A model generated the notes under the pieces. That model searched no databases and was not told the DNA's origin. It saw nothing but the letters and a program-made list of their open reading frames with translations. 64,000 bases of DNA, taken from assembly GCA_964036195.1 (NCBI GenBank), contig OZ038451.1, forward strand, positions 28,785,927 through 28,849,926. Reading direction: 5' to 3'. Positions within the stretch are counted from its first letter, which is position 1, and each line of letters starts with the position of its first letter. Of the stretch, positions 18,575 to 24,863 are shown in pieces. Origin of the DNA: Sphaerolaimus hirsutus. Its lineage: Eukaryota > Nematoda > Chromadorea > Monhysterida > Sphaerolaimidae. Made by a program: the position numbers and the translations under genes.

Positions 18575-18578
18575 CAGG

Positions 18579-18769
18579 GGGCAGTCCCAGACCCTGTAAA
18601 ATGCCATGTAAAATGTAAAATGTCATGCAAAGTGTTAAAAGTCATGTAAAATGCCAGGTAAAATGGTAAACGTACGTTTGCCATTTTACCGGGCATTTTA
18701 CATGATTTTTGTCACTTTGCATGACATTTTACATTTTACAGGACATTTTACAGGGTCTGGGACTGGCAC
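18579..18769 (-). mobile_element. 191-bp hairpin MITE inside the LRR gene (intron candidate 2)
   Basis: On the minus strand it begins GTGCCAGTCCCAGACCC and ends GGGTCTGGGACTGCCC, with near-perfect inverted arms meeting at AAACGTACGTTT. CTG precedes the element and CCTG follows it (partial target duplication). It has the same length, ends and centre as the copy at 23559-23749. It splits exon 6 from exon 7 of the LRR gene. The element's GT follows the last codon of exon 6 directly, but the second target copy ends in TG rather than AG. Confidence 0.85.
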
Positions 18770-22961: not shown

Positions 22962-23058
22962 TACCGTATTTCCTCGAAATACCCCCCGGGGGTGATTGTT
23001 TCAGAGTGAAAATTTTGAGGGGGGTTAAACGAGGGGGGTATTTCAACGAAATACGGTA
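22962..23058. mobile_element. Short TACCGTATT-family MITE
   Basis: A 97-bp copy runs from TACCGTATTTCCTCGAA to TTCAACGAAATACGGTA. It has almost no interior. Confidence 0.8.
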
Positions 23059-23121
23059 TGTGCGGATGCATACTACTGTGCTGCCCGTGGGGTATAAACC
23101 ACAATTTTCAAAGATGCACTA

Positions 23122-23236
23122 TACCGTATTTCCTCGAATTACCCCCCGGGGGGTTTATTTTTTCAGAGTGAAATTTTTGAGAGAAAAACGTGAAAAATGC
23201 AACAATAACCACCATTTATAAGTTTTTACAGTCTTA
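23122..23236. mobile_element. Left end of a truncated TACCGTATT-family MITE
   Basis: It begins TACCGTATTTCCTCGAATT and continues into family-like middle sequence, but has no right end before the palindrome at 23237. Confidence 0.6.
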
Positions 23237-23288
23237 TACCGTATTTCCTCGAAATACCCCCCGGGGGGTATTTCGAGGAAATACGGTA
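23237..23288. repeat. Perfect 52-bp palindrome: TACCGTATT-family ends with no interior
   Basis: Two 26-base inverted repeats, TACCGTATTTCCTCG... and its complement, meet at CCCCCCGGGGGG with nothing between them. It is the minimal form of the family that fills this window. Confidence 0.9.
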
Positions 23289-23393
23289 TTTACAATTTTA
23301 ATTTTTAAAATCCATTTATCCATTCATAAAACTTTTTCCATCAGCCAACCATCCAAAAATTCCCTGAAAAGTTAAAACCCCTCCAAAACTCAC

Positions 23394-23553
23394 CGACAAA
23401 GATCTCAAATTTCTCAATCCCGCGAATGTCCTGGGCGCAATCCTAAGGATCCTATTATTATGCAGGGTCAAATGTTTCAACAGGGGATATCTGTTAAAAT
23501 CGGCCGGTCTCAATTCGTTAATATTGCACTCGAACAGCTTGAGAGACGTGAGG
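23394..23553 (-). CDS. LRR gene, exon 3: first leucine-rich repeats
   Basis: The exon starts with one base completing a serine codon, then reads LTSLKLFECNINELRPADF and later LLKHLTLHNNRILRI and FAGLRNLRSLS. The donor is TTGTCG/GTGAGT (phase 0). These are two canonical LRR units (L..L.L..N.I..I....F). The join to exon 2 gives ...VPDTLPS-S-LTSLKL, exactly the usual link between an LRR N-terminal cap and the first repeat. This supports the acceptor at CCCTCCAG, which lies inside the target duplication of the hairpin element. Confidence 0.9.
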
Positions 23554-23749
23554 CTGGAGGGCAGTCCCGCACCCTGTAAAATGCCCTGCAAAATGTAAAA
23601 TGTCATGCAAAGTGTCAAAAGTCATGTAAAATGCCCTGCAAAATGGCAAACGTACGTTTGCCATTTTGCAGGCCATTTTACATGACTTTTGACACTTTGC
23701 ATGACATTTTACATTTTACAGGGCATTTTACATGGTCTGGGCTTGGCAC
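23554..23749 (-). other. Intron 2 of the LRR gene, formed by a transposon plus one target-site copy
   Basis: The intron is 196 bases long on the minus strand, from GTGCCAAGCCCAG to CTGCCCTCCAG. It is made of the 191-bp element (23559-23749) plus the second copy of the duplicated target TCCAG. The upstream exon ends with the same CCCTCCAG. Deleting element plus duplication gives the same mRNA as splicing. Confidence 0.85.
23559..23749 (-). mobile_element. 191-bp hairpin MITE acting as an intron (introner-like)
   Basis: On the minus strand it begins GTGCCAAGCCCAGACC and ends GGTGCGGGACTGCCC. Its two halves are inverted copies meeting at AAACGTACGTTT, with blocks TGTAAAATGTCATGCAAAG and CTTTGCATGACATTTTACA. 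The target duplication is TCCAG (forward CTGGA at 23554-23558 and 23750-23754). If the neighbouring GGGCA is counted the match reaches 10 bases, but the CTGCCC belongs to the element in other copies. The first two bases are GT and serve as the 5' splice site. Confidence 0.9.
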
Positions 23750-23831
23750 CTGGAGGGCAACGTGTCGGGCACGTTTTTCAGCGCCCCGCCGCATTTGCAG
23801 TCGGCTTCGTTGCGACGCACGCACCAGCAAC
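23750..23831 (-). CDS. LRR gene, exon 2: N-terminal cysteine cap (LRRNT)
   Basis: The acceptor is CACCCATAG. The exon reads CWCVRRNEADCKCGGALKN then VPDTLPS, phase 1 in and phase 2 out. With ECPPG from exon 1 it forms the cysteine-rich cap that precedes extracellular LRR stacks (a C..G.C.C....C.C pattern). The exon ends CCCTCCAG, directly followed by the GT of the inserted hairpin element. Confidence 0.85.
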
Positions 23832-24757: not shown

Positions 24758-24863
24758 CTGGAGGGCATTCAACAGCGTAGGGCGTCTGCAGCGCCATGGA
24801 AATGGCCAATAGACCGGCCGTGTAGGGCAGCAAAGACATTCTGCCCAATGTTGATAGCGGCAT
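24758..24863 (-). CDS. LRR gene, exon 1: start codon and signal peptide
   Basis: ATG at 24863-24861 opens a typical secretion signal: MPLSTLGRM, then a hydrophobic core LLPYTAGLLAISMAL, then QTPYAVECPPG, where the cysteine cap begins. The donor is CCTCCAG/GTAGAT, phase 1, matching exon 2. The complete protein would be about 372 residues: signal peptide, N-cap, roughly seven LRRs, C-cap and hydrophobic tail. It would be secreted or tethered outside the cell. The partner is unknown. Arthropod proteins of this shape are sometimes annotated as oplophorus-luciferase non-catalytic subunit-like; whether this one belongs there was not tested. Confidence 0.85.

Follow-up and report, generated by a model that had tools for sequence, protein, structure and literature searches.

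A hairpin transposon family, probably NuwaI-like, as a probable introner in the nematode Sphaerolaimus hirsutus

The origin of new introns, and what a gene requires of a fresh intron before it can be tolerated, are old questions for which there are few clean animal cases. They are posed by a hairpin element in a gene for a leucine-rich repeat (LRR) protein on the minus strand of a 64,000-nucleotide stretch of the Sphaerolaimus hirsutus genome (contig OZ038451.1, positions 28,785,927 to 28,849,926; hereafter, the window). Is this element itself the intron, and, if so, what provides its splice sites? We propose that it is a non-autonomous, NuwaI-like (PIF/Harbinger-related) miniature inverted-repeat transposable element (MITE) acting as an introner, i.e., a transposon that creates introns, and we put the probability of this explanation as a whole at about 0.88. 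Many hundreds of introns in this animal are probably the work of the family to which it belongs, and a sizable share of them would end, unusually, in TG rather than AG.

The original prediction took the hairpin for a complete, frame-restoring intron, with the 5′ GT coming from the element and the 3′ AG from a copy of the duplicated target, and this observation is confirmed. Read directly on the minus strand, the borders run ...TTGCCCTCCAG then GTGCCAAG...CTGCCCTCCAG then CCTCACG, which gives an intron of 196 nt with canonical GT-AG ends. Exons 1 to 3, when joined, form a single open frame (...VPDTLPSSLTSLKL...), whereas retention of the element brings in stop codons. The joined protein has a Pfam LRR_8 match, resembles LRRC15 (E value of 1e-21), and aligns in a search of the PDB with Toll-like receptor 3 (TLR3) without a gap at the junction, which is as seamless as had been claimed; the query used for the TLR3 alignment carried one wrong residue, located off the junction. 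The two arms of the hairpin meet without a spacer, pair at 94%, and fold at -150.6 kcal/mol, against a mean of -60.3 kcal/mol for shuffled sequences (z of -19; 0 of 200 shuffles as stable). Two details had to be revised upon comparison with other copies: the element is 193 bp rather than 191 bp long, and the target duplication is the 3-bp CAG rather than TCCAG, the TC before CAG matching by chance. The LRR locus is present twice in the assembly (on contigs here labeled C2 and C108), and the element is found in both.

The element belongs to a large family. In the source assembly (348 Mb, 762 contigs), a whole-element search returned at least 80 matches, with 40 of 2,430 candidates scored; a second search, with the inner parts of both arms as the query, so that copies were not selected by their ends, gave 283 full elements with perfect inner ends genome-wide (control, 0). 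Copies with exact outer ends total 1,247, namely, 571 CAG/CAG, 401 CTG/CTG, 201 CTG/CAG, and 74 CAG/CTG, where each target class is written with the exon-side (left) copy before the acceptor-side (right) copy; a reversed-pattern control gave 0 for each of the four classes. Being short, bounded by inverted repeats, devoid of coding capacity, and high in copy number, the copies have the character of MITEs. No exact 24-mer match to the element was found in viral contigs or in bacterial and archaeal genomes, from which records near the window's genome may be omitted. Some subfamilies share the ends but have other insides (CCAAGCCCTGTAAAGTG..., TTCCAGACCATGTAAAGTG...), and their first 80 letters are very alike among CTG/CTG and CAG/CTG copies; these are possibly younger bursts.

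For closer comparison, we used a positional sample of 50 copies (L048 to L096 and the second copy in the window) among the matches of the inner-arm search, all on contigs C1 and C2. Three duplicates (L073, L076, and L091) and six copies in which one end was damaged or could not be placed easily (L063, L071, L077, L090, L092, and L094) were dropped, leaving 41. A similarity-ranked set of 39 copies (L009 to L047) serves for examples only. Two of the duplicates reflect inverted duplications, in which one insertion is seen twice in opposite orientation: L072/L073 (C1:31.85 and 31.90 Mb) lie about 51 kb apart, and L090/L091 (C2:23.87 and 23.90 Mb) lie about 36 kb apart. L094 and L095 (C2:29.03 and 29.15 Mb) are paralogous copies of a single insertion, with the exon-side target being CCG in one and CAG in the other.

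The 41 copies share the layout ...CWG then GTGCCAGTCCCAGACC...GGTCTGGGACTGCCCC then CWG.... The W of the left copy equals that of the right in 36 of them, against 18.9 in shuffled pairs, and no other position is clearly above shuffling; the C and the G agree in 39 of 41 each, both being nearly invariant. Because only W matches locus by locus beyond shuffling, we define the target duplication as the 3-bp CWG; a 5-bp CCWGG duplication and an element end including CCCAG were dropped on the same ground. The target pairs comprise CAG/CAG (17 copies), CTG/CTG (14), CTG/CAG (3), and seven others seen once each, among them CTT/CTT and CGG/CGG; CATG occurs in L025 and L045. A GT stands at the 5′ end in 40 of the 41 clean copies. 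It follows as a refinement of the earlier rule that the AG acceptor arises only from a CAG target and that a CTG target would leave an intron ending in TG.

These features point to a particular transposon group. The two ends of the element are unequal: the acceptor end, GGGGCAG (read outward-in, GGGGCAGTCCC), starts with GGG, and the donor end, GTGCCA (GTGCCAGTCCC), does not. The NuwaI group of the PHIS (PIF/Harbinger-ISL2EU-Spy) superfamily, found in animals, makes 3-bp CWG duplications and has terminal repeats that usually start with GGG (PMC4482050). The family described here has the same CWG target duplication, one GGG-starting end, and an animal host; unlike NuwaI, it has one end in GTG and consists of copies of about 190 bp without a gene, and the NuwaI passages covered make no mention of introns (PMC4482050). 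The donor GT may be derived by change from an ancestral GGG end. NuwaI elements are moved by a DDE transposase together with a Myb/SANT partner. As for a potential source of transposase, the genome contains at least 163 matches to PF13359 (DDE_Tnp_4), a DDE domain of PIF/Harbinger transposases, with 150 of 306 candidates scored. Most of these matches have near-equal scores, extend over 633 bp although they cover some 147 domain positions, and contain about four in-frame TGA codons. Such genes (e.g., C2:10037349-10037981) would thus have an insert of about 190 bp, roughly the size of the introner, within the transposase gene.

If these copies are introns, their removal should restore conserved proteins, and the genome-wide hairpin search proposed earlier was run in this modified form, with protein continuity as the criterion. 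The flanks of each copy were joined after removal of the element, and the reading frames were scanned with Pfam, accepting matches with an E value of up to 0.1. A match was obtained for 14 of 26 scanned loci in the positional sample, and each of these 14 has the GTG end leading in the sense of the gene; frames of the opposite strand had been offered for 11 of these (all except L057, L075, and L095), and one locus, L063, has a rearranged donor end. Upon removal of the element, AMPK-gamma (L054) shows an ungapped STKL/VVFD junction (PDB E value of 1e-35), ATRX (L059) runs continuously through AANR/VIIFD (E value of 3e-45), and an SLC6 protein (L037) runs through AVGL/GNVWRF (E value of 4e-32). 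Pfam domains spanning the junction include Oscp1, an Srx-type receptor, calpain III, adaptin, BTB, UGT, ZP-N, ZIP, and ribosomal S7; a PDB search with the calpain locus gave no match; one-sided matches were seen for LRR (L050), cadherin (L055 and L075), Tudor (L066), RRM (L043), and SH3 (L022), among others. Near-identical predicted introns are found at unrelated positions across different genes, and the element boundaries coincide with the splice points that protein continuity requires, the splice sites themselves being predicted. Accordingly, the introner interpretation of the original prediction is supported.

What happens when the element lands in CTG rather than CAG? Exact copies ending in TG number 475 of 1,247, the other 772 ending in AG. 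At eight CTG/CTG loci, protein homology extends over the junction (L019, L024, L033, L037, L052, L054, L057, and L058), with that of L019 being weak (E value of 0.003); SLC6 (L037), Oscp1 (L052), and AMPK-gamma (L054) are among them. The ATRX copy has a CGG target and a predicted GT-GG intron; a single CGG/CGG copy with the exactly searched ends exists in the genome, and the ATRX copy, differing by one base, is uncounted there. Judged by median identity to the consensus (0.900 for 15 TG-ending copies versus 0.906 for 23 AG-ending copies), TG-ending copies are not younger than those ending in AG. The exon-side copy of the target records the original base, and this allows the fate of each acceptor to be counted. 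By this measure, 645 copies entered on the CAG side and 602 on the CTG side. Without selection, decay of the target copies would give about equal numbers of left-T/right-A and left-A/right-T mismatches; the observed numbers are 201 and 74 (binomial P of 1e-14). Put differently, 201 of 602 copies with an exon-side T now have an A acceptor, versus 74 of 645 with an exon-side A that have a T acceptor (Fisher P of 6e-21). The counts are as expected if insertion into CAG and CTG is about equal, TG acceptors function adequately for the copies to persist, and selection turns TG into the better-functioning AG.

The most serious alternative concerns these TG-ending copies. They might be damaging alleles or pseudogenes, or be spliced at some other AG, and not at TG at all; human genes seldom have TG acceptors (PMC4176328), and selection in this genome itself appears to favor AG. 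Yet the CTG copies are as diverged as the CAG copies and are located in conserved genes. Splicing at the next exonic AG would preserve the frame in 11 of 26 copies ending in TG (both samples pooled, duplicates included), against 8.7 expected, and was rejected. In the consensus, the A of a yUnAy motif stands 23 nt before the intron end. The first AG upstream of that end lies 19 nt from it and within 3 nt of this A, which is perhaps too close for use; splicing there would lengthen the mRNA by 19 nt and put it out of frame. Nine ordinary 3′ splice sites beside element loci are AG, having been chosen by eye and partly by their AG, with only the AMPK-gamma one also fixed by protein continuity. We consider it unlikely that the CTG copies escape splicing at TG. 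We lean, with some reserve, toward the view that one family gives rise to GT-AG and GT-TG introns side by side merely by landing in CAG or CTG; that a spliceosome normally using AG excises the TG introns exactly, also in essential genes, perhaps aided by the hairpin, which would bring the two intron ends together; and that TG evolves to AG.

The same hairpin suggests that removal might be independent of the splice sites, through structure-driven splicing, as proposed for Amoebophrya, or excision at the DNA level. Its extreme stability, the GG end of the ATRX copy, and the few copies with targets such as CTT and CAT would fit this. However, the uniform orientation of the 14 Pfam-matched loci, the near-constant GT at the 5′ end, and the drift of TG toward AG all speak against it, the last suggesting, if indirectly, that the cutting is done by the spliceosome rather than by the hairpin alone. 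Further, the two apparent opposite-orientation copies in the similarity-ranked set (L014, with a strong codon signal and no convincing Pfam match, and L047, with a codon signal only) also have GT at their gene-first end: L014 has CAG then GTGGCAGTCC, and L047 has GTGCCA at both ends, as if either end of the element can become the donor. We therefore regard splice-site-independent removal as improbable. Still less credence is due to the idea that a hairpin MITE inserted into a preexisting intron and fills it by chance: MITEs are common in introns, and the other introns of the LRR gene look ordinary, but neither the window copy nor the protein-checked loci have intron sequence outside the element, and the same two ends fall on the required splice points across numerous unrelated genes. 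Propagation through RNA and reverse splicing, a route suggested for introners of fungi and Micromonas (PMC9860276, PMC3879977), is just as implausible in view of the locus-specific 3-bp target copies, the near-perfect inverted repeats, and a CWG target that matches a known DNA transposon group (PMC4482050).

Several observations weigh against the introner explanation or temper it. All splicing steps are deduced from protein continuity, and the link to the NuwaI transposase is drawn from target and end sequences. The genome-wide counts take in extragenic copies, related subfamilies, and segmental duplicates and are not counts of independent events; for example, eight CAG/CTG copies lie inside C9:24.9-25.8 Mb, a segmental duplication. 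Twelve of the 26 scanned loci in the positional sample gave no Pfam match. A codon-usage strand score (trained on 565 codons, with 7 of the 8 training peptides located), which is too weak in AT-rich exons and enters no count, favors the opposite strand in 17 of the 50 positional-sample loci; four of these (L052, L057, L064, and L096) are set GT first by Pfam, and others, such as L069 and L080, could be opposite-strand insertions. Finally, no element-free site was found for the window LRR gene, the only copies found, on C2 and C108, both being occupied, and none of 15 candidate paralogues has an empty site.

Taking these findings together, the following course of events may be envisaged. As the copies show, the element goes mostly into CWG, with duplication of 3 bp, and its ends are unequal, with a NuwaI-type GGG start at one and the splice donor at the other. 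The copies that persist in exons have the GTG end first in the sense of the gene, presumably as a result of their splicing. The spliceosome would cut at the GT and at the second target copy, which is preceded by CTGCCCCC, and the mRNA would therefore be exactly as it was before the insertion. A CAG target would yield a GT-AG intron, and a CTG target would yield a GT-TG intron that persists and is gradually converted to GT-AG.

Features of the window that bear on the element and its host gene, with the basis of each assignment
Feature	Position in window	Strand	Basis
Exon 1 of LRR gene (start codon and hydrophobic leader, then GTAGAT)	24758..24839	-	Translation
Exon 2 of LRR gene (LRR N-cap)	23750..23831	-	Translation; PDB alignment
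Exon 3 of LRR gene (LRRs, then GTGAGT)	23394..23553	-	Translation; Pfam LRR_8
Predicted intron created by the element, GTGCCAAG...CTGCCCTCCAG, 196 nt	23554..23749	-	Sequence; frame restored by removal
Hairpin element itself, 193 bp, from donor end GTGCCA (23749) to C-rich acceptor end (23557)	23557..23749	-	Ends set against the 41 positional-sample copies
Target copy 1, CAG, closing exon 2	23750..23752	-	Sequence and copy comparison
Target copy 2, CAG, giving the 3′ splice AG	23554..23556	-	Sequence and copy comparison
Inverted-repeat arms, 2 × 88 nt, 94% complementary	23566..23653 / 23654..23741		Arm alignment; fold z of -19
Second full element copy, CTG/CTG class; predicted GT..TG intron, 195 nt, between open frames	18575..18769	-	Copy comparison, translation

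A Pfam scan of the gene around the second window copy gave no match. Elsewhere in the window, positions 22975 to 23290 and several tandem-repeat rows contain recurring palindromic units around TACCGTATTTCCTCGAAATACCCCCC, a separate small repeat. A reverse transcriptase open reading frame lies at positions 13 to 2307 of the plus strand (RVT_1 E value of 4e-25), with a weak upstream endonuclease match under the cutoff; it is probably part of a non-LTR (long terminal repeat) retrotransposon at the window edge.

The interest of this family lies in what is visible in it: the sources of both splice sites, the likely parent transposon group, and an acceptor, AG or TG, set by the chance of insertion. 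As acceptor fates are countable, the strength of selection on the last-but-one base of the intron becomes measurable, maybe across hundreds of separate insertions. If our interpretation is true, the family constitutes a natural experiment, with hundreds of introns, on how much the 3′ AG matters. GT-TG introns in such numbers would also lead gene prediction astray in this genome. The literature covered, which left out all preprints and the majority of subscription papers, yielded no report of an introner of NuwaI origin or of an animal with GT-TG introners in the hundreds. A 2025 survey of introners on a larger scale, reportedly from the group of Gozashti et al., may include this animal.

The origin of introners from DNA transposons is established (Gozashti et al. 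2022, PMC9860276), and that survey found them in only two animal groups; for the size of a family in a genome, it gives between 5 and more than 2,000 copies. The present family resembles them in comprising repeated, near-identical, DNA-transposon-like introns whose splice sites are split between element and target and which usually leave the mRNA length unchanged; it differs in that the target decides between an AG and a TG acceptor, and no CWG or NuwaI family is named in the parts of the survey covered (PMC9860276). GT-TG introners are known from the green alga Micromonas, where IE-B and IE-D have 25 and 6 members (31 in total) of very variable length (PMC3879977); here, in contrast, a single family in an animal genome has both AG- and TG-ending members, with hundreds of each. 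The introner elements of Amoebophrya have, like ours, hairpin inverted repeats and short (3- to 5-nt) direct repeats at the exon borders, along with many noncanonical splice sites (PMC7789003). In that system, the dinucleotides at the splice sites are variable and follow no signature, and no U1 was found, whereas the donor here is nearly always GTG and it is mainly the base before the final G that varies. In human genes, TG acceptors occur singly (PMC4176328). A further parallel is Fritillaria, an animal lineage with many non-GT/AG introns, for which introners have been discussed as possible contributors of weak splice sites (PMC13326754); in Sphaerolaimus hirsutus, the departure lies at the acceptor of one transposon family.
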